64,000 bases of DNA from positions 1,054,001 to 1,118,000 of the forward strand of contig NZ_CP069791.1 in assembly GCF_016894265.1 (NCBI RefSeq), read 5' to 3'. Below are positions 1,864 through 49,155 of the stretch, piece by piece; within the stretch, counting starts at the first letter, position 1; each line of letters opens with the position of its first letter. The notes under the pieces are model-generated. The model was given only the letters and a program-made list of their open reading frames with translations, was not told where the DNA came from and made no database searches. Origin of the DNA: Corynebacterium tuberculostearicum. GTDB taxonomy: Bacteria; Actinomycetota; Actinomycetes; Mycobacteriales; Mycobacteriaceae. The translations under genes and the position numbers were made by a program.

Positions 1864-2738
1864 TGACGGTCCGCGTCATTACGGACTCCTCCGCGGGCCT
1901 GCCGCCGGAGCTGGCGGAGCAGCTATCCATCACCGTCATTGACCTGCACCTTATGGAAAGCCACGGCAAGGATGGCCTGGAGCGCTCCACCTCGGGGTTG
2001 AGCGCGCTGGAGTTGGCCGCCGCCTACGGCCGCGAAATGGAGCGTGCCCAGGATGATGGCGTGGTGGCCATTCACCTGTCCAAAGAGCTATCTTCCACCT
2101 ATTCCGCCGCGGTATCCGCCTCCGGCGTCTTTCCGCACACGGTGCGGGTAATTGACTCCGGTTCGGCCGGTATGGCCATGGGCGCGGCCGCCATGTCCGC
2201 CGCCAAGCTCGCCTCCCGCGGCGCCAGCTTGGACGAGTGCTATGCCGCGGCCATCGATACCCTCAAGCGCGCGGCTACCTGGGTCTACCTGCATTCCACG
2301 GAGGACCTGCGCCGCTCTGGCCGCCTTTCCCCGGCCACGGCCGTGCTGTCTACGGCGCTGTTGGCCACCAAGCCGATTATGTCGATTACCCGGGGCAAGC
2401 TGGAGCTGGTGGGCAAGACCCGCACCCAGACCAAGGCTTTTACCAAGCTGGTGGACCTCATCGCCTCCCGCGCGGACGGCGAGCCGGCCTTCGTTGCCAT
2501 CCAGCACAACCAAGCCGAAGACGCGGCTGCCAAGCTGGAGGCGCTCCTTGAAGCGGCGCTGCCGCAGGGTTCGTCCTTTATCTGCACTCCGCTTAACGAC
2601 GTCCTCTCTGTCCACGCCGGCCCCTCCGCCATCGGCGTCTCCGCTGTGTTTAGCTCCGAGCCTCCCGCCGAACCAGCACATCCTCACACACGTGGTCGAC
2701 CCCGCGCCTTCTCGCCGCGCCGTTCTGTGGATAACTAG
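1863..2738 (+). CDS. DegV family fatty-acid-binding protein
   Basis: DegV proteins bind a fatty acid in a cleft between two alpha/beta domains; many act as FakB subunits that present fatty acids to a FakA kinase. The N-terminal VRVITDSSAGLP and the STxxx...LSxxLSSTYxxA and IDSGSAGMAMG motifs are typical. The GTG at 1863 is preferred over in-frame starts further upstream because it gives the standard N-terminus and overlaps the gpgP stop by one base (291 residues). No fakA gene is seen nearby. The C-terminal ~20 residues are arginine- and proline-rich, and their coding DNA contains a TTATCCACA-type element (2725-2736). Confidence 0.88.
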   Translation: MTVRVITDSSAGLPPELAEQLSITVIDLHLMESHGKDGLERSTSGLSALELAAAYGREMERAQDDGVVAIHLSKELSSTYSAAVSASGVFPHTVRVIDSGSAGMAMGAAAMSAAKLASRGASLDECYAAAIDTLKRAATWVYLHSTEDLRRSGRLSPATAVLSTALLATKPIMSITRGKLELVGKTRTQTKAFTKLVDLIASRADGEPAFVAIQHNQAEDAAAKLEALLEAALPQGSSFICTPLNDVLSVHAGPSAIGVSAVFSSEPPAEPAHPHTRGRPRAFSPRRSVDN

Positions 2739-2784
2739 GCCCACCGCGCCGGGTTCGTTGACGCCCACAACAAGTTATCCACAG
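2725..2784. promoter_or_regulatory. Inverted pair of DnaA-box-like 12-mers upstream of comEA
   Basis: CTGTGGATAACT at 2725-2736 and its exact reverse complement AGTTATCCACAG at 2773-2784 form a perfect 12-bp inverted repeat with a 36-bp spacer. Each contains a perfect DnaA box (TTATCCACA). The proximal copy ends 53 nt before the comEA ATG. The same 12-mer at the same distance and in the same orientation precedes two other genes in this window (starts at 14216 and 49024). Arm length and spacing suggest two separate protein-binding sites rather than a transcription terminator. DnaA binding is inferred only from the sequence match. Confidence 0.6.
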
Positions 2785-2824
2785 CCCACCTCCGCTCGAC
2801 CTTTCACTGGTGTGCGCCCGCGCT

Positions 2825-2830
2825 TAGCCT
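2825..2830 (+). promoter_or_regulatory. -10 element of comEA (leaderless)
   Basis: TAGCCT lies exactly 7 nt before the comEA ATG, so transcription should begin at or within a base or two of the start codon. No ribosome-binding site is present. The proximal DnaA-box-like element is centred near -59 relative to that start, a position typical of an upstream activator site. Confidence 0.55.
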
Positions 2831-2837
2831 CAGCGCC

Positions 2838-3536
2838 ATGGCGGCACCCAAGATCAGCGAACGACTCCGCGAATTTACCCAACCCACCGGCGAGGAAGAA
2901 CTTCTTGCCGTCGATTACCCGCGCCCGCGGCTGCGCATCAGCCCCTGGCAGGCCTGTGCCGTGGCGGTCATTCTCGTTATCGGCGTGGTGGTCTGGCTCG
3001 GCATTAATGCGCGCTCCGATGACGCCTCCGGCATGCCCGAGCCTGCGGCAATGAGCCCAGGCGCGGCCCCCAGCGAAGAACCTAGCGAGATCATCGTCTC
3101 GGTCATCGGCGAAGTTGCAGAGCCCGGCCTGAAAACACTCGAGCCCGGCGCGCGTGTGGCCGATGCCCTCGATGCCGCCCAGCCGCTACCCGGCGCCGAG
3201 ACCATGGCGCTCAACCATGCGCAGCGGCTTTCCGACGGCCAACAGCTCCACATCCTGCCCTCCGGCGCCGCCCCAGCTCCCGCACCCGGCGAACCCGCCC
3301 CCGCCGGCGACAACTCCAGCAGCCCTGGCGGCAGCGCTAGCGGCAGCGGCGTGAGCCTTAATAGCGCCACCGCCGAGGAGCTCACCGAACTCAAGGGCGT
3401 CGGCGAGGTGACCGCGCAGGCCATCGTGGCCTACCGCGAGGAGCACGGCGGTTTCAAGGACGTGGACGAGCTCCTCGAGGTCTCAGGCATCGGGCCGGCG
3501 AAGCTGGCACAGCTCAAAGATCAAATCCAGCTATAA
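2838..3536 (+). CDS. comEA: ComEA-type DNA-binding protein, helix-hairpin-helix
   Basis: Membrane-anchored protein that would bind incoming double-stranded DNA at the outer face of the cytoplasmic membrane and hand it to ComEC. The 232 residues comprise a cytoplasmic N-terminus, one membrane segment near residues 35-55, and an SLBB-like domain (IIVSVIGEVAEPGL...). A flexible Pro/Ala/Gly/Ser linker leads to a C-terminal double helix-hairpin-helix (LNSATAEELTELKGVGEVTAQAIV and VSGIGPAKLAQL). comEC follows 18 nt downstream. Whether this organism is naturally transformable cannot be judged here; no type IV pilus genes are in the window. Confidence 0.92.
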   Translation: MAAPKISERLREFTQPTGEEELLAVDYPRPRLRISPWQACAVAVILVIGVVVWLGINARSDDASGMPEPAAMSPGAAPSEEPSEIIVSVIGEVAEPGLKTLEPGARVADALDAAQPLPGAETMALNHAQRLSDGQQLHILPSGAAPAPAPGEPAPAGDNSSSPGGSASGSGVSLNSATAEELTELKGVGEVTAQAIVAYREEHGGFKDVDELLEVSGIGPAKLAQLKDQIQL

Positions 3537-3554: not shown

Positions 3555-4967
3555 ATGCGAGAACTGCGGCTCGTCCCCGGCGCGGCCACCGCTTGGCTGT
3601 CCGTCATCGCCGTGCTGCTCGCCGGCCGCGGCTGGGCCATCGCACTCATCGCGGTCATCGTCGCGCTGTGCCTCCTTGCCCGTCAATGGGGCCAAGCGCT
3701 CTTTTGCGGTGCAGTCGCTGGGGGTGCGGCGCTCGTCGCCGCGGTGCGCCAGGCTCGTGCTGCCGCTTTCGACCTCGGCACAGAAGTCACCGGGCGCCTT
3801 GTCACTGCACCGACGCAGACCAGCACGGGCGGCTGGCTGCTCAAGCTCAAGGTTCCGGGATACCCGACCCAGCTGCCGGTCTTTAGCCCAGAACCAGTCC
3901 CAGCGGCCGCTGGCGCCGAGCTTACGGCCAGGGTGAGGGTAGGGGAGTCGGATAGGGCGGGTGTCGGAAAGCTCAGCGCCAATGCCGCCGACGTGCAGGT
4001 AACCGCTGAGCCCGAAGGCCTGGCCGGCTGGGCGGCCGAGGTGGCCGAGAATTTCCGCGCACTGGTACTCGATACCGTCGGTCCTTCCAGCCAGGGCCTT
4101 ATCCCCGGCATGGTGCTCGGCGATACCGCGCTGCAAGATACCGCCGAGCGCGACCTGTATATCGCCACCGGGCTCTCACACTTGAGTGCTGTATCCGGCG
4201 CCAATGTGGCCATCGTCTGCTCCGCCGCGGCCGTGGTCTGCGCCGCCTTCGCGCTCGGGCCCCGCGCCCGCGTGGCCGCCTCCCTGTGCGCCCTTGCCAC
4301 CTATGTTCTGCTTGTGGGCTTCGAACCTTCCGTTCAGCGCGCGGCCGTCGCTGGGGTAGTGGGGCTGCTCGCCGTGCTCAATTCCACGCGCATGGAGCCC
4401 ATCCATGCGCTCAGCCTCGGCATCATCGCGCTGCTCTTTGTGGATTCCGACCTCGCCGTGCACTTCGGCTTCGCCCTATCCTGTGCGGCGACGCTCGGCA
4501 TCGTGGCGCTGAGCCCGCTCATCTATAAGCACTTGGCCGTGACCGGCTGGCCCGCCATCTTCCTGCGCGCGGTTGCCGTGGCCATCGCCGCCGATATCGT
4601 CACCCTGCCGCTGGTGGCACTCATGTCCGGCGAGGTCTCCGTGGTCTCCGTGCTGGCCAATATCCTTGTCGAGCCCGCCACCGTGCCGATTACCATCGTG
4701 GGGCTTATCGCCGCCATCTTTGCCCAGCTCGGCCCGCTCGACGTGCTGGGCGCCGGCTTGCTGCGCCTCATTGAGCCCTTCTCGTGGTGGATTAATACCG
4801 TCGCCCACGGCGTGGCCCACCTGCCCGTGGTCACCATTCCTGCTAACCCGCTTTTTACGCTGCTTGCCTACGCCTGGATCATTGCCGGCCTCCTCTATCA
4901 CCGCCCGTGGCTCACCTTGGCGCTGACGCTGGCGGGCATCGCCTGGCTCGGCCTGGCCGCAGGCTAG
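3555..4967 (+). CDS. comEC: ComEC/Rec2 family DNA-uptake channel
   Basis: Predicted polytopic membrane protein of the ComEC competence family, thought to carry single-stranded DNA across the cytoplasmic membrane. The 470 residues contain an N-terminal domain with hydrophobic segments and a soluble OB-like part. The competence domain follows, with the hallmark GLSHLSAVSGANVAIV at about residues 208-224 and several further membrane helices. It ends after the membrane domain and lacks the C-terminal metallo-beta-lactamase-like domain of Bacillus ComEC. Short forms of this kind are known in actinobacteria. It probably forms an operon with comEA. Confidence 0.9.
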   Translation: MRELRLVPGAATAWLSVIAVLLAGRGWAIALIAVIVALCLLARQWGQALFCGAVAGGAALVAAVRQARAAAFDLGTEVTGRLVTAPTQTSTGGWLLKLKVPGYPTQLPVFSPEPVPAAAGAELTARVRVGESDRAGVGKLSANAADVQVTAEPEGLAGWAAEVAENFRALVLDTVGPSSQGLIPGMVLGDTALQDTAERDLYIATGLSHLSAVSGANVAIVCSAAAVVCAAFALGPRARVAASLCALATYVLLVGFEPSVQRAAVAGVVGLLAVLNSTRMEPIHALSLGIIALLFVDSDLAVHFGFALSCAATLGIVALSPLIYKHLAVTGWPAIFLRAVAVAIAADIVTLPLVALMSGEVSVVSVLANILVEPATVPITIVGLIAAIFAQLGPLDVLGAGLLRLIEPFSWWINTVAHGVAHLPVVTIPANPLFTLLAYAWIIAGLLYHRPWLTLALTLAGIAWLGLAAG

Positions 4968-4970
4968 AAT
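4965..4970 (+). promoter_or_regulatory. -10 element of holA (leaderless)
   Basis: TAGAAT overlaps the comEC stop codon and lies exactly 7 nt before the ATG at 4978. It would initiate a leaderless holA transcript and argues against using the ATG at 4969, which is inside the hexamer. Confidence 0.5.
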
Positions 4971-4977
4971 GGCGGGC

Positions 4978-5946
4978 ATGCCTCCAGTACACCTCATCCT
5001 CGGCGACGATGAATTCCTCACCGAACGCGCCCGCCTGCACATCCAGCGCGCCGCGGCCGAGGAGAGCGGATCTTCCGGCACCCGGCCCGAGCTGACCAAG
5101 CTCAAGGCCTCCGAGGTCTCTGAGGGAGAGCTCCTCGAGGCCACCAGCCCGTCGCTCTTTGGCGATAACCGCGTAATCGTCATCAGCGACTGCGAGCGTG
5201 CCGGCAAAGAAGTAGTCGATATCCTCCTGCGCGCCTGTGCCAACCCCGCGCCGGGCATGACCATGGTCATCATCTACTCCGTGACGGCCAAGACGCTGAA
5301 GAAAAAGAAGAAGCAGCCCGAGCTCGTGGCCAAGCTGCGCAAGATTGCGGAGGTCCACGAGGTCTTTTCGCTCTACCCCAATGAGCTGGGCCAGTGGGCC
5401 ACCCGCGAATTTTCCAGCCACGGCGTGCGACCCACCCCGGACGTTATCCACGCCGTGCTTGAGGGAGTGGGCTCTGACCTGCGCGAGCTGGCTTCGGCCA
5501 TCTCCCAGCTGGTCTCCGATACCGGCGGCAATGTCACCCGCGAGGCGGTGCAAAACTACTACGTCGGCGTGGCCGAGGTGGCCAATTGGGACATTGCCGA
5601 CGCCGCCGTCGCCGGCCGCGTCGAAGCCGCCGTATCCACCTGCCGCCGCGCCCTCCAGCTGGGCGCGAGCCCCGTGGCGATTGCCGCCGCGCTGGCCAAT
5701 AAGGTCGGCGCTGTCGCCCGCCTCTACTCCGCGCGCGGGGACCAGTACTCGCTGGCGAGCCAAACTGGCCTGGCACCCTACGTGGTCAAAATGACCCAGC
5801 CCGTGGCCCGCCGCTGGTCCGCCGATAATGTCACCAAGGCCGTCATCCTCGTCTCCGAGCTCGATGCCGCCGTCAAAGGCCAAGGCGGTGAGCCCGAATT
5901 CGCCCTTGAGGCGGCCGTCAAACGCGTCGCGGAACTGGCGCGATAA
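4978..5946 (+). CDS. holA: DNA polymerase III subunit delta
   Basis: Delta subunit of the clamp loader, which opens the beta sliding clamp during chromosome replication. The N-terminus MPPVHLILGDDEFL is the family signature. The LxELxKLxxSE region and the long helical C-terminal collar domain (SDLRELASAISQLVSDT, then VANWDIADAAVAGR) match HolA. A start at 4978 gives 322 residues; the ATG at 4969 would add three residues but lies inside a likely -10 element. The comEA-comEC-holA order is conserved in many bacteria. Confidence 0.93.
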   Translation: MPPVHLILGDDEFLTERARLHIQRAAAEESGSSGTRPELTKLKASEVSEGELLEATSPSLFGDNRVIVISDCERAGKEVVDILLRACANPAPGMTMVIIYSVTAKTLKKKKKQPELVAKLRKIAEVHEVFSLYPNELGQWATREFSSHGVRPTPDVIHAVLEGVGSDLRELASAISQLVSDTGGNVTREAVQNYYVGVAEVANWDIADAAVAGRVEAAVSTCRRALQLGASPVAIAAALANKVGAVARLYSARGDQYSLASQTGLAPYVVKMTQPVARRWSADNVTKAVILVSELDAAVKGQGGEPEFALEAAVKRVAELAR

Positions 5947-13226: not shown

Positions 13227-14216
13227 CTAGGTCGATCCGGCCCAGGGCGGGACCCAGACTATTCGGCCCTGCCGCCGCTCAAGCCTGCCGCGCACCGGCG
13301 GCGCGTGCGGATCGTCGTCGTTGACGCCGTTGTGATACGGGCACGCCACGCTGAGATTCGCCATATTGGTCTCCCCGCCGTGCTTCCACGCCTGCAGGTG
13401 GTGGATCTGACACTTATCCGCCGGATAGTTGCACTCGGCCCACGGGCAGGTGGGATTTTCCGCGCCCGCCATCAGCCGCTGCTTATCCGAGGCATGCCGC
13501 GAGGTGCGATACAGGTTCACCGCTCCCTCATAAGGATGGACGAGGGTGACGAGCCCGCATTCGGCCAAGCGCTTTTCCACCAGCTTCGCGCCGCTTATTT
13601 CGGCACCATTGGTTAACCGCAGCGTGATTTCCTCACCTCCGCCGCTTAAGATTTCATCCAATTCATCGAGCTGGATGATGATATTCGTCGTCGCGGCAGG
13701 CCGCGCCGCAGCCCCGCCGCGGAAGAAGATATGCTCCACGGAATCAAGCGGCATCTCCTCGTTGATGCTGGCGTGCAGGTCAGCAATGAAATCGGAATCG
13801 CCGGTAATCGATAGCGTCGACGGGCCACCCTTGCGCCGCGTCATCCGCACGCCTTTCTCCGGCTGCCGCGGCGGATAAAGCTCCTTCAACCGCGTGCGCG
13901 CGAGCCGCTCCACGTCCTGGTCGGTCGCGCATAGTTCAGCGCGCAGCGCCCACGCATCCCGCTTGGATTTCGTGCGCGAGACGTACTTTTCGATGATCTT
14001 CAACGTCGCCAAGCAATGCTTGGTTGCCCGGCACGAGCGCTGCCGGCGGGTGAAGGGGGTGGGGCCAAAGTAGACGTCGGCAAGCGCAAGCAGGCTCCGG
14101 GCCTCCTGCCGGGGAAGCCCCAGCCGGCGCAGGTCGGCCTCGCGCGCGCCAGAGACCTCGCCGAGAAGCTCCATCGGCGAGGTAAGTTGGCGGGCGTAGT
14201 CCTGCAAGCGGGTCAT
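13227..14216 (-). CDS. HNH endonuclease domain protein (DUF222/REP13E12-like)
   Basis: 329-residue protein with a C-terminal HNH nuclease module: CPWAECNYPADKCQIHHLQAWKHGGETNMANLSVACPYHN, including the H-H pair, the internal N and the final H. The N-terminal two thirds are alpha-helical and resemble the DUF222-type region of actinobacterial HNH proteins, which occur in several copies per genome and whose role is unknown. The ATG at 14216 is chosen because TAGGCT lies exactly 7 nt upstream. Paired DnaA-box-like elements lie further upstream, as at comEA. DNA cleavage is predicted but not shown. Confidence 0.82.
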   Translation of the reverse strand: MTRLQDYARQLTSPMELLGEVSGAREADLRRLGLPRQEARSLLALADVYFGPTPFTRRQRSCRATKHCLATLKIIEKYVSRTKSKRDAWALRAELCATDQDVERLARTRLKELYPPRQPEKGVRMTRRKGGPSTLSITGDSDFIADLHASINEEMPLDSVEHIFFRGGAAARPAATTNIIIQLDELDEILSGGGEEITLRLTNGAEISGAKLVEKRLAECGLVTLVHPYEGAVNLYRTSRHASDKQRLMAGAENPTCPWAECNYPADKCQIHHLQAWKHGGETNMANLSVACPYHNGVNDDDPHAPPVRGRLERRQGRIVWVPPWAGST

Positions 14217-14223
14217 GCCGGTG

Positions 14224-14229
14224 AGCCTA
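14224..14229 (-). promoter_or_regulatory. -10 element of the HNH gene (leaderless)
   Basis: On the minus strand TAGGCT is 7 nt before the ATG at 14216. Spacing to the proximal TTATCCACA element is the same as at comEA. Confidence 0.5.
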
Positions 14230-14268: not shown

Positions 14269-14332
14269 CTGTGGATAACTCGCCCCACCCGTCACACCAA
14301 CCCCGAACCCGCCGGGCGGCCTGTGGATAACC
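14269..14332. promoter_or_regulatory. Tandem pair of DnaA-box-like elements upstream of the HNH gene
   Basis: CTGTGGATAACT (14269-14280) and CTGTGGATAACC (14321-14332) are direct repeats on the plus strand, each with a perfect TTATCCACA on the minus strand. The proximal copy begins 53 nt upstream of the HNH start codon, in the same orientation relative to the gene as at comEA and at the gene starting at 49024. The distal copy is also 42 nt upstream of the divergent M20 peptidase start. Confidence 0.55.
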
Positions 14333-22705: not shown

Positions 22706-24100
22706 GTGATTATTACCGGACTTCTCACCGGCATCGTCTTCGGTGCCGTGCTGCAGCGCGGGCGCTTCTGCGTAACCGGCATGCTGCGCGATATTTTCCT
22801 CAATAAAACGTGGCGCGGCTTTACCGCCCTGCTCATTTTGATTTCGGTGCATGCCTTTGGCCTGACTCTGTTGACAGGCATGGGCGTGCTTTCGCCGGAG
22901 ATTAGCGATTTCAAGCCGGTAGCCGTCATCGTGGGCGGCTTCATCTTTGGCCTCGGCATCATCTTGTCCGGCGGTTGCGCGTCCGGCACGTGGTACCGCT
23001 CGGCAGAGGGCCTGGTCGGCTCGTGGATTGCGCTGCTGTTTTACGGGCTTTCGGCCGCGGCCATGAAGTCCGGCCCGCTGTCCGGCGCCAATGACTGGTT
23101 CAAGCAGTGGAGCCTCCCGGTCACCACCATCCACGGCGCGCTGCATATCTCGCCGTGGATCTTGGTTGCAGTCCTGTGGGTCGTGACCTTCCTGCTGTGG
23201 CGCCACTACCGCGCCAAGGACGCCGGCCGCCCGAAGGTGGATTTGGGCCAGCCGTGGTACGCCAAGCCGTTGAACATGAATATCGCGGCGGTTGCTGTGG
23301 GCATCATCGGCACGGTGGGCTTTGTGCTTTCGGCTAACGCTGGCCGCAACGGCGGCCTCGGCATCACCACGCCGACCGCGGACATCGTCCGCTGGACCGC
23401 CACCGGCGATTCCGCGCGTATGAACTGGGGCACCCTGTTGGTTATTGGCCTGCTGGTGGGCGCTTTTATCGCCGCCAAGTCCGCCGGTGAGTTCCGCGTG
23501 CGCGTGCCCGATGCGCAGACCGCGACCCGCGCTATTTGGGGCGGCATCATGATGGGCGTAGGCGCGTCACTAGCCGGCGGCTGCACCGTGGGCAATGGCA
23601 TGGTGGAGACCTCCCTGTTTAGCTTCCAGGGCTGGGTATCGCTGTTCTTTATGGCCCTGGGCGTCGGCGCGGGCGCGCGCCTGTGGCTCAAGCCGAAGAA
23701 CGCGCAGAGCCGTGAGCCGCAGCAGCCGCAGACCTACTCCACCGAGGAATCCGTGGATAACTCGGTGGTCTCCGCCGAGGATAAGGTGCTGCCGAGCTTC
23801 GCCACTGCCACCGGGGCGGTAGCGCTCAAGACCAAGCCGCAGGTTAAGAACAAGGCCCGCGCGCTGGGCGGCGGACACTATGCGCTCGATACCCTCGGCG
23901 CGGTGTGCCCGTTCCCGTTGATTGAGGCCAAGCAGGTCATGGCGGAGCTGGAGACTGGCGAGGCGCTTGTCATTGACTTTGACTGCACCCAGGCCACCGA
24001 ATCCATTCCGCAGTGGGCGGCCGATGAGGGCCATGAGATTCGTGATTTCCATCGCTCGGGCGATGCTGGTTGGCAGGTCACGGTGGTCAAGGGCGGATAA
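22706..24100 (+). CDS. Thiosulfate importer fused to TusA-like domain (TsuA-TsuB fusion)
   Basis: 464-residue fusion. Residues 1-330 form a YeeE/YedE (TsuA-type) membrane channel with cysteines at 22 (QRGRFC), 91 (LSGGCASG) and 293 (LAGGCTVGNG), the positions that line the thiosulfate path in the structurally studied YeeE. After a ~60-residue polar linker, residues ~390-464 form a TusA-type sulfur carrier with C401 in C-P-F-P. In E. coli and others the carrier (YeeD/TsuB) is a separate protein needed for uptake. The GTG at 22706 is preferred to the ATG at 22691 because AAGGAG is 5 nt upstream and the cysteine numbering then matches. Confidence 0.88.
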   Translation: MIITGLLTGIVFGAVLQRGRFCVTGMLRDIFLNKTWRGFTALLILISVHAFGLTLLTGMGVLSPEISDFKPVAVIVGGFIFGLGIILSGGCASGTWYRSAEGLVGSWIALLFYGLSAAAMKSGPLSGANDWFKQWSLPVTTIHGALHISPWILVAVLWVVTFLLWRHYRAKDAGRPKVDLGQPWYAKPLNMNIAAVAVGIIGTVGFVLSANAGRNGGLGITTPTADIVRWTATGDSARMNWGTLLVIGLLVGAFIAAKSAGEFRVRVPDAQTATRAIWGGIMMGVGASLAGGCTVGNGMVETSLFSFQGWVSLFFMALGVGAGARLWLKPKNAQSREPQQPQTYSTEESVDNSVVSAEDKVLPSFATATGAVALKTKPQVKNKARALGGGHYALDTLGAVCPFPLIEAKQVMAELETGEALVIDFDCTQATESIPQWAADEGHEIRDFHRSGDAGWQVTVVKGG

Positions 24101-48151: not shown

Positions 48152-49024
48152 TTAGGCAGAACGCGCGGCCTTTTGTCTGGCGGTGATGGTGGAAATGAGG
48201 TCGGTCAGGAAAAGAGTGGGGTGGTCGATGAGCTGCCGAGGGGTATAGCAGAGTACGGTGAAGCCGGCCTCGCGCAGACGTCGGTGGCGCTCACGCTGAT
48301 GGGCAAGCGCCTTCGCGGGGATGATGTCGATGAGGTAGGCGCTGTTGATGCATAGGGCGGTCGTGATGCCGGGCAACGCGGTGAACGGCGCCTCGAAGAA
48401 CATGGGCCAGGGGAAATCGGCCTCAATGAGGAGGGCGCGGGCGAAAGACTCGTAGGGAGAGCGGGAAAGAGGTGAGGCGTGGTGGATTACGGCACGGACG
48501 ATGCGGCTATTGCGCACCCGGCCCATGCGGGCAAACTCTTCCTTGAGGTCTTCCCGGCTGAGGCCGGAACGCAAAGCCGAGTCGGCGGCGATGAGGCCGT
48601 CGGTGAAGCCGTGGTAGCGGGCGACGTCGATAACCGCGCGGGCCTTGGAGACACACCGGGTGCCGTCCACAAGGACGGGCTCAGGAAGTAAAGCCTTGCG
48701 GTAGATGCGCTCGGGATGGCGGCGGTCCTTGTGCGGAAGCGTATTGGTGGGAAGGGCCATTTCAATCTTTTCCTCGGCTGTGGCGATGACCCACAGTCCG
48801 TGCACGCGGGCGGCGGACTTGGAGATGAGCACCGCGGTATAGGCGCTGCGGGCGGCGGCGATGGCGCGCAGGCGCAGCTGGGAGGGGAAGTCGAGGTAAT
48901 GGTAGTGATCGCGCCGGACTGCGATGCGCGGTGCGAGCTTGAGGTAGGTGCCGTTTTTCAGGTCGGTCCAGAAGGTGGGGTGGTTGGCGCGGATGGAGTC
49001 GATATTGGTCAGTGGTGGTGTCAT
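48152..49024 (-). CDS. DUF559/AbiEi-like protein, putative nuclease
   Basis: 290 residues. The N-terminal ~90 resemble the winged-helix/AbiEi-like region of a large actinobacterial family (LKNGTYLKLAPRIAVRRDHYHYLDFPSQLRLRAIAAARS, then TAVLISKSAARVHGLWV). The C-terminal ~110 align with the Vsr-like DUF559 domain (SPYESFARALLIEADFPWP...YLIDIIPAKALAHQRERHRRLREAGFTVLCYTPRQL). The catalytic part looks degenerate: the usual V-E-x-D-G/K signature is replaced by I-D-I-I-P-A-K. AGGAGG lies 3 nt before the ATG. Paired DnaA-box-like elements lie upstream. Nuclease activity is uncertain. Confidence 0.68.
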   Translation of the reverse strand: MTPPLTNIDSIRANHPTFWTDLKNGTYLKLAPRIAVRRDHYHYLDFPSQLRLRAIAAARSAYTAVLISKSAARVHGLWVIATAEEKIEMALPTNTLPHKDRRHPERIYRKALLPEPVLVDGTRCVSKARAVIDVARYHGFTDGLIAADSALRSGLSREDLKEEFARMGRVRNSRIVRAVIHHASPLSRSPYESFARALLIEADFPWPMFFEAPFTALPGITTALCINSAYLIDIIPAKALAHQRERHRRLREAGFTVLCYTPRQLIDHPTLFLTDLISTITARQKAARSA

Positions 49025-49077
49025 GCCTCCTAGGAAAGGGGACGCTGCCGGCCGGTGCGAGGAGGTGGCGGCCGGGC

Positions 49078-49155
49078 CTGTGGATAACAAGGTCGCAGGG
49101 AAAGGCGAGTGAGCGAAGTGGCGGCTGGGAAAGTTACGGTCACAGTTATCCACAG
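49078..49155. promoter_or_regulatory. Inverted pair of DnaA-box-like elements upstream of the DUF559-like gene
   Basis: CTGTGGATAACA (49078-49089) and AGTTATCCACAG (49144-49155) each contain a perfect TTATCCACA in opposite orientation, 54 bp apart. The proximal copy begins 53 nt upstream of the ATG at 49024 and points the same way relative to the gene as at comEA and the HNH gene. A weak -10-like TTTCCT lies 7 nt before the start codon. Confidence 0.55.

Follow-up and report, generated by a model that had tools for sequence, protein, structure and literature searches.

In other phyla, competence operators such as the ComK box, CRP-S/Sxy and ComX have in common that one operator serves scattered DNA-uptake and DNA-processing operons. 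For competence in Micrococcus luteus, the upstream signals, the regulatory cascade and the upstream regulator are reported, in the available part of a recent study (PMC12849477), as still to be identified, and DnaA boxes at promoters outside oriC, acting in activation or repression, are known from the available text of a review (PMC8203912). Here we analyzed a stretch of 64,000 nucleotides of Corynebacterium tuberculostearicum (contig NZ_CP069791.1, positions 1,054,001 to 1,118,000; hereafter the window), in which pairs of DnaA-type boxes precede the competence genes comEA-comEC, a gene for an HNH endonuclease-type protein and a gene for an AbiEi/DUF559-like protein. The regulatory system to which these boxes belong is real, large and conserved. 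The anatomy of the sites gives good support to a DnaA-type operator that serves a transformation regulon, and we consider it probable that the box controls competence (natural transformation) genes as their common operator, with DnaA as its most likely reader.

Boxes in the window and in the genome

The perfect 9-mer TTATCCACA occurs exactly 6 times in the window, as pairs near 2.7, 14.3 and 49.1 kb that lie before comEA, the HNH gene and the AbiEi-like gene, compared with a mean of 0.14 and a maximum of 1 in 100 shuffled windows. A first-pass annotation of the window had noticed these 6 sites and placed all of them at the same 3 loci, and a direct read agreed, as it did for the comEA promoter, where the distal 12-mer CTGTGGATAACT is the exact reverse complement of the proximal AGTTATCCACAG with 36 bp between the two, and where TAGCCT stands 7 nt before the start codon. 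A 12-mer with one mismatch was found by the window scan at 23751, and this mismatch breaks the 9-mer. The distance of 53 nt from the 12-mer end to the start codon, which had been claimed for all 3 loci, holds for comEA and the AbiEi-like gene, whereas it is 52 nt at the HNH gene (counted from the 9-mer end, the 3 distances are 54, 53, and 54 nt for comEA, the HNH gene and the AbiEi-like gene, respectively). Similarly, the orientation said to be common to the 3 loci is constant for the proximal boxes, each of which points at its gene, but not for the distal boxes, of which that of the HNH gene is direct and the other two are inverted (Table 1). Measured from start to start, the pairs are spaced by 49 bp (comEA), 52 bp (HNH gene) and 67 bp (AbiEi-like gene). 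A -10-like hexamer lies shortly before each of the 3 ATGs, which points to leaderless transcripts; AGGAGG is also present before the ATG of the AbiEi-like gene.

The same search was applied to the 2.43-Mb single contig that carries the window. The ComEA encoded there shares 96% identity (best segment) with ComEA of C. tuberculostearicum SK141, which was the closest among the named records found, and the genome can thus be assigned to the C. tuberculostearicum complex. TTATCCACA was found 51 times (versus 5 controls) and GTTATCCACAG 35 times, with 0 occurrences of its reversed control. Sorted by hand, 27 of the 51 sites lie in 15 promoters, in all of which the proximal box has the same orientation, 13 lie in three clusters, and 11 elsewhere. 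Thirteen genes start 52–54 nt after a box: 8 HNH paralogs, ssd, comEA, the AbiEi-like gene of the window, a DUF559/AbiEi_4 gene (2035 kb) and an 87-aa orphan. One further gene, also of the HNH type, has its box at 64 nt, which is one helical turn beyond the 52–54 class. The product of ssd is the actinobacterial CpaE homologue (TIGR03815, 3.7e-63), and the gene next to it encodes the TadA ATPase (TIGR03819, 4.1e-138). The yraN-comM-dprA operon carries a close inverted box pair 67 nt before its first ATG and 97 nt before the next, the second ATG being favoured because relatives carry a stop in place of the first. The uptake channel, the pilus and the DprA operon all carry boxes. Fixed-position boxes stand before several non-homologous genes, since comEA, ssd, the HNH family, the AbiEi/DUF559-like genes and the orphan open reading frame (ORF) match different families or none. 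The first-pass annotation had proposed that DnaA, or a factor of the same specificity, activates a small set of uptake and cleavage genes. The idea is supported, with com genes, the dprA operon, HNH genes and DUF559/AbiEi genes found behind boxes as predicted and the Tad pilus in addition, but the set is larger than had been thought.

Table 1. Coordinates of genes, boxes and promoter elements at the 3 box-bearing loci of the window
Feature	Position	Strand	Remarks
comEA promoter, distal DnaA-type box	2725..2736	-	exact 12-mer; AGTTATCCACAG on minus strand, CTGTGGATAACT on plus strand; inverted
Place of the palindrome TGACGYGTCA	2759..2768	+	6 nt upstream of box; window keeps only the left half, TGACGC
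comEA promoter, proximal DnaA-type box	2773..2784	+	AGTTATCCACAG; 9-mer TTATCCACA at 2775-2783
comEA -10 element TAGCCT	2825-2830	+	ends 7 nt before ATG 2838; putative leaderless promoter
comEA	2838..3536	+	HHH_3 1.7e-22 (Pfam)
comEC	3555..4967	+	Competence PF03772 5.3e-43
holA (DNA polymerase III delta)	4969..5946	+	PF21694 8.6e-11; next gene in the presumed comEA operon
HNH endonuclease-type gene	13227..14216	-	HNH PF01844 7.4e-5; 1 of 11 full-length paralogs in the genome
HNH gene, -10 element TAGGCT	14224..14229	-	read from sequence
HNH gene, proximal box	14269..14280	-	9-mer 53 nt before ATG
HNH gene, distal box	14321..14332	-	GGTTATCCACAG; direct, 52 bp from proximal
AbiEi/DUF559-like gene	48152..49024	-	AbiEi 5e-4, weak match; relative behind a box in another species
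AbiEi/DUF559-like gene, weak -10 TTTCCT	49032..49037	-	position -13..-8
AbiEi/DUF559-like gene, proximal box	49078..49089	-	TGTTATCCACAG; 9-mer 54 nt before ATG
AbiEi/DUF559-like gene, distal box	49144..49155	+	inverted, 67 bp away, off the common phase

Promoter geometry within and outside Corynebacterium

A pattern scan for TTATCCACA followed by any ATG at a gap of 48–58 nt gave 152 matches in 13 Corynebacterium genomes. Genome-wide matches are not scattered, as the first-pass annotation had anticipated: 91 of the 150 listed fall on the 3 gaps 52–54 and 59 on the other 8 of the 11 allowed gaps (p = 1e-17). From this list, 20 stretches of other species with gaps of 50–56 and genes other than comEA and ssd were picked and read by eye. 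They held 13 HNH genes of the same kind, 3 AbiEi/DUF559-like genes, 1 small orphan, 1 carbon-nitrogen hydrolase-like gene and 1 M23 peptidase-like gene; the last stretch had no ORF.

ComEA is present in all 151 sampled genomes of the genus. The comEA promoters of 111 of them were studied, namely the 91 best by similarity (bar one that was moved to the second set) and 20 in which ssd is missing or weak. One of the 91 loci was dropped because no start lay within 60 nt of the expected one, leaving 90 usable promoters. In 84 of these, a 9-mer within two mismatches of TTATCCACA, our definition of a DnaA box, stands at 51–56 nt (at least 7/9 positions matching; 61 perfect), compared with a mean of 0.41 and a maximum of 3 in shuffled promoters. 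The arrangement is therefore kept in sister species, as had been expected, and at comEA partly in other families (see below). The other 6-nt bins held 0–3 matches each except for 15 at 81–86 nt, where box-like forward 9-mers of 15/90 promoters lie approximately 30 nt upstream of the proximal box. ATG was preferred in choosing starts, since a GTG inside the -10 element (TAGCGTG) can be mistaken for a start; with this preference the strict box is found in 74/90 promoters, and if such GTGs are taken as starts, in 60/90 at 51–55 nt. The spacing from box to -10 element is 39–42 bp in 57/57 non-redundant promoters drawn from the 74, a set in which the TCCACA core was fixed by the search pattern and the flanking G at -1 and +9 was free. 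The -10 logo over the strict-box promoters reads TAGC(G/C)T at -13..-8 before the ATG, with the -10 at the 6–8 nt from the start codon that mark leaderless promoters. TAGCCT thus reads better as the -10 element of a putative leaderless promoter than as a ribosome site, which the logo rules out for comEA.

At ssd, which was found in 74/81 genomes of the genus, forward TT[AG]TCCACA is present in 28 of the 30 best promoters, and all 28 have an open start 51–54 nt behind it. At yraN, the forward box was found in 19 of the 30 best promoters (of 80 genomes) and a box on either strand in 26/30, often as an inverted pair at 15 or 26–27 bp with no fixed gap. Across the putative competence regulon, the geometry is thus fixed at comEA and ssd, and the dprA operon has boxes at a different spacing.

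The distances between paired boxes follow the turn of the helix. After removal of promoters that shared 70% identity or more with one already retained (direct pairs reduced from 26 to 21, inverted pairs from 32 to 26) and exclusion of the yraN pairs, the 21 direct pairs lie 41–44 bp (8 pairs), 50–55 bp (7), 62–63 bp (4) or 29–31 bp (2) apart from start to start, and the 26 inverted pairs 26–28 bp (7), 38–39 bp (8), 49 bp (3), 59–60 bp (3) or at other distances (5). The best period is 10.6 bp for direct and 10.8 bp for inverted pairs, each with p = 2e-4, the smallest value attainable with the 5000 permutations used, in which any period from 6 to 16 was allowed. Each orientation class therefore yields the repeat of B-DNA independently, and the phasing is compatible with two protein molecules bound to the same helical face. 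The inverted pair at comEA is in phase with the other inverted pairs; the pair at 49.1 kb is off phase.

Outside the main clade, we analyzed the 20 loci with missing or weak ssd, 28 loci from 19 other genera of the family and 27 loci from across the class (2 of the own family), the latter two sets having been taken, non-randomly, as the top-ranking ComEA matches among 79 and 112 matching genomes. YYNTCCACA located 45–74 nt before an in-frame start and accompanied by a -10 element, with all in-frame starts tried for motif and controls alike, was found at 12/20, 19/28, and 16/27 comEA loci, and six permuted or reversed controls (reverse complement included) gave 0–1. The 51 gaps form two classes about one turn apart, 19 at 50–54 and 23 at 62–65, with 9 elsewhere. 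Where ssd is missing or weak, few loci keep the 53-nt rule (3/19) and the class at 64–65 nt is commoner. A class I activator site, centred near -60 and moving by whole turns, has this signature: 42/51 gaps at 50–54 or 62–65 and, in the main clade, 39–42 bp from box to -10. For ssd across the class, a box was found in the zone in 12/30 promoters, compared with 3 for the reverse complement and 0 for the other four controls. The third base of the box is A in 70/84 boxes of the genus and G in 13/19 class loci, a shift that GC content alone could cause.

A second element is present at some of these promoters. The palindrome TGACGYGTCA (at least 9/10 positions) lies exactly 6 nt upstream of the box in 17/74 comEA promoters (1.1 in shuffles) and at 13, 14 or 35 nt from the box in 12/28 ssd promoters (0.5 in shuffles; examples from comEA and ssd promoters of the genus are L085 and L109), and was found in 0/32 other promoters, mostly of nuclease genes. 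This suggests that another regulator works at these comEA and ssd promoters. No common gene that could be the owner of the palindrome was found across six genomes, in which six loci were read.

Candidate readers of the box

The clusters of the genome lie at 508.4–508.6 kb, at 531.7–534.0 kb flanking dnaA (the presumed oriC) and at 604 kb before dnaB; DnaA and DnaB were identified computationally and dnaN by eye. Beside dnaA, AGTTATCCACAG is present at 531855, 533864 and 533912, identical to promoter boxes of the same genome, and the variants TTGTCCACA, TTATTCACA and TCATCCACA found there also occur at promoters of relatives. DnaA itself is the only protein of the genome with a DnaA DNA-binding domain. 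The best box of Actinomycetes is TT(G/C)TCCACA and that of E. coli and others TTATCCACA, according to the accessible part of a review (PMC4285127), and a dimer of DnaA domain I is conserved in Actinomycetes, as stated in the accessible part of a 2026 paper (PMC13270200). This dimer offers a way to co-bind boxes some tens of bp apart and, by analogy, could bridge the two boxes of a pair, although it is described there for replication initiation and here promoters are concerned. DnaA is the best candidate because the boxes and variants beside dnaA, the sole DnaA-domain protein, the review consensus and the domain I dimer all agree with it; that DnaA itself reads the box and activates from it is, in our judgement, on balance probable, and the presence of the box at uptake genes points to a coupling of DNA uptake with chromosome replication.

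Under this reading, one DnaA molecule would bind the proximal box, centred near -58 if the start codon is also the transcript start. The 9-mer end, 39–42 bp from the -10 element, would place it in the position of a class I activator, from which DnaA could touch RNA polymerase and offset a weak -35 region, and a second DnaA would bind cooperatively to the helically phased distal box. The targets would be the Tad pilus via ssd-tadA, comEA-comEC with holA, the yraN-comM-dprA operon, the HNH family and the AbiEi/DUF559-like proteins, and a rise in free DnaA, for example when initiation or replication is held up, would raise the expression of all these genes together.

The main alternative, which we consider rather unlikely, is that a dedicated and so far unidentified transcription factor with DnaA-like specificity activates the regulon and DnaA is not involved. 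It agrees with the constant placement of the boxes within their promoters, as would be expected of a dedicated activator, and the presence of TGACGYGTCA at a single offset at comEA, and at ssd, suggests that another regulator is at work. Such a factor would, however, need to use a 12-mer identical to that of the boxes found next to dnaA, and a second DnaA-type DNA-binding domain is absent from this genome. Several points weigh against DnaA as the reader of a competence operator. Any factor with DnaA-like specificity would leave the same marks. Outside Corynebacterium, 19 class loci have a candidate box, and TT occupies the first two bases in only 8 of them, so that many of these boxes are not good DnaA boxes, and the 11 that depart from TT favour a dedicated factor; at ssd across the class, a -10 element was found in 0 of the 12 promoters with a box in the zone. 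The HNH promoters may share ancestry, hence the paralogs are not independent, and start codons were chosen by homology or open frame and not mapped. The boxes of the yraN-comM-dprA operon break the 53-nt rule. Among the matches listed in a literature search, which covered titles and abstract openings with most subscription papers outside it, there was no report of transformation of a Corynebacterium.

Two further points of this kind concern holA, which comes after comEC in the window. All 7 sampled genomes in which ssd had no match retain a box upstream of comEA (6 of them with the spaced geometry); the box is therefore not tied to the Tad pilus as such, and a replisome role through holA is a real rival for comEA alone. 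These genomes, together with the box clusters beside dnaA and before dnaB, fit the idea that the comEA boxes serve the replisome gene holA and that competence and nuclease genes are passengers or later recruits. As an account of the whole system we regard it as highly improbable, in view of the same geometry before ssd, 9 of the 11 HNH paralogs (8 at 52–54 nt, one at 64) and the AbiEi-like genes, whose products are not replisome parts (further downstream genes were checked for some of these loci only). Less probable still is that DnaA represses these genes or that the boxes merely titrate it. DnaA does act as activator or repressor, its own gene included, in the available text of the review cited above (PMC8203912), but the box is centred upstream of the core promoter, at about -58 or a further turn away, an arrangement that argues against repression, and titration needs neither fixed spacing nor phase. 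Chance or base composition has a negligible probability: shuffles and permuted-motif controls gave values close to zero and nothing was found in its favour, so that GC composition was rejected as an explanation.

Genes behind the boxes and known systems

The HNH protein of the window belongs to a set of 11 full-length paralogs in the genome, itself included, to which 8 distant HNH-domain matches can be added. Eight of the 11 have TTATCCACA at 52–54 nt, 1 has it at 64 nt, 1 has CTATCCACA at 63 nt, and 1 has none; a box in the zone was found for 0/8 distant matches, 2 of which had no in-frame start codon and the others uncertain starts. No solved structure matched the HNH protein in a structure search. 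Multi-copy HNH proteins are familiar in actinobacteria from the 13E12/DUF222 proteins of mycobacteria; the window protein shares this trait with them, but in Pfam it matches only HNH and not DUF222, and any membership of that group is putative. For both this protein and the AbiEi-like protein, the Pfam scan used a longer start than the annotated ATG, and from that start the AbiEi-like protein had no Pfam match at E 0.001. Over 270 aa, the latter is 29% identical to a protein whose gene follows a box in another species, and the acidic motif of the relative in L203 seems, by eye in the alignment, to be missing from it. Searches with PADLOC and PHROGs returned no named defence system beyond weak AbiEi matches, 1 weak REase_II and 1 weak HEase. 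Nuclease activity of these products is predicted.

Some other boxes accompany genes of various kinds. The 87-aa orphan (L047:2667-2930) has a perfect box at 53 nt, precedes an Abhydrolase_8 gene and is divergent from a carbon-nitrogen hydrolase-like gene (by eye), and in the genome G010 a box stands 56 nt before the carbon-nitrogen hydrolase-like gene itself, not before an orphan (L212). This 87-aa ORF and a 93-aa ORF (L205) looked alike and were considered as relatives, but a comparison showed no similarity. An M23-peptidase-like gene of one species (by eye, L215:302-808) is preceded by a box at 52 nt, and a similar gene of the window genome has one approximately 124 nt away (L053); the product may belong to the programme as a cell-wall enzyme. 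Box sequences were also observed on repeated, probably mobile elements in the genome G008 (four places) and at 285124 of the window genome, one of them near an IS110-like transposase (by eye).

The cluster at 508426-508620, about 25 kb from dnaA and close to genes that look by eye like crgA and pknB, contains 4 boxes, 2 of which form a tight inverted pair with one base between them; this tight pair is also present in another species (G011:C31:20457). The cluster could be a titration or DnaA-reactivation site. At 604137-604395, 4 boxes lie between an rplI-like gene (by eye) and dnaB, which suggests control of this helicase gene by DnaA.

Competence control in Actinomycetota is reported as unresolved in the available part of PMC12849477, and the conserved operator is a concrete candidate for it, with which the responding genes can be predicted and the question put to the test in laboratory strains. 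Should DnaA prove to be the reader, the transformation programme would gain new effectors in the HNH and AbiEi-like proteins. More tentatively, and with less confidence than we place in the operator, DnaA may be the master activator of natural transformation that has been missing for Actinomycetes. In its free or ATP-bound form it would act through phased box pairs on pilus, import, DprA operon and nucleases, making the replication-stalled cell competent, and a second regulator at TGACGYGTCA would add input to the uptake genes and not to the nucleases.

The machinery behind the boxes is of the same kind as that of M. luteus transformation, which comprises a Flp/Tad pilus, ComEA, ComEC and a DprA orthologue as far as the available parts of the papers describe it (PMC4322843, PMC8467076, PMC12849477), and the term "dnaA" gave 0 hits in two of these papers (PMC8467076, PMC12849477). 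With DnaA as a transcription factor, the system has in common the boxes at promoters other than oriC, again from the part of the review that is available (PMC8203912); "competence" gave 0 hits in this review, and here the boxes form a fixed-position, helically phased operator for DNA-uptake genes. No paper on DnaA control of competence in Actinomycetes was among the matches listed, which consisted of titles and abstract openings with most subscription papers outside. Like the ComK box, CRP-S/Sxy and ComX systems, the box is one operator at scattered uptake and DNA-processing operons. Those systems employ other proteins and motifs and, to our knowledge, operators that do not themselves involve the replication initiator, whereas the operator described here would, if DnaA is its reader, couple DNA uptake directly to the replication state of the cell.

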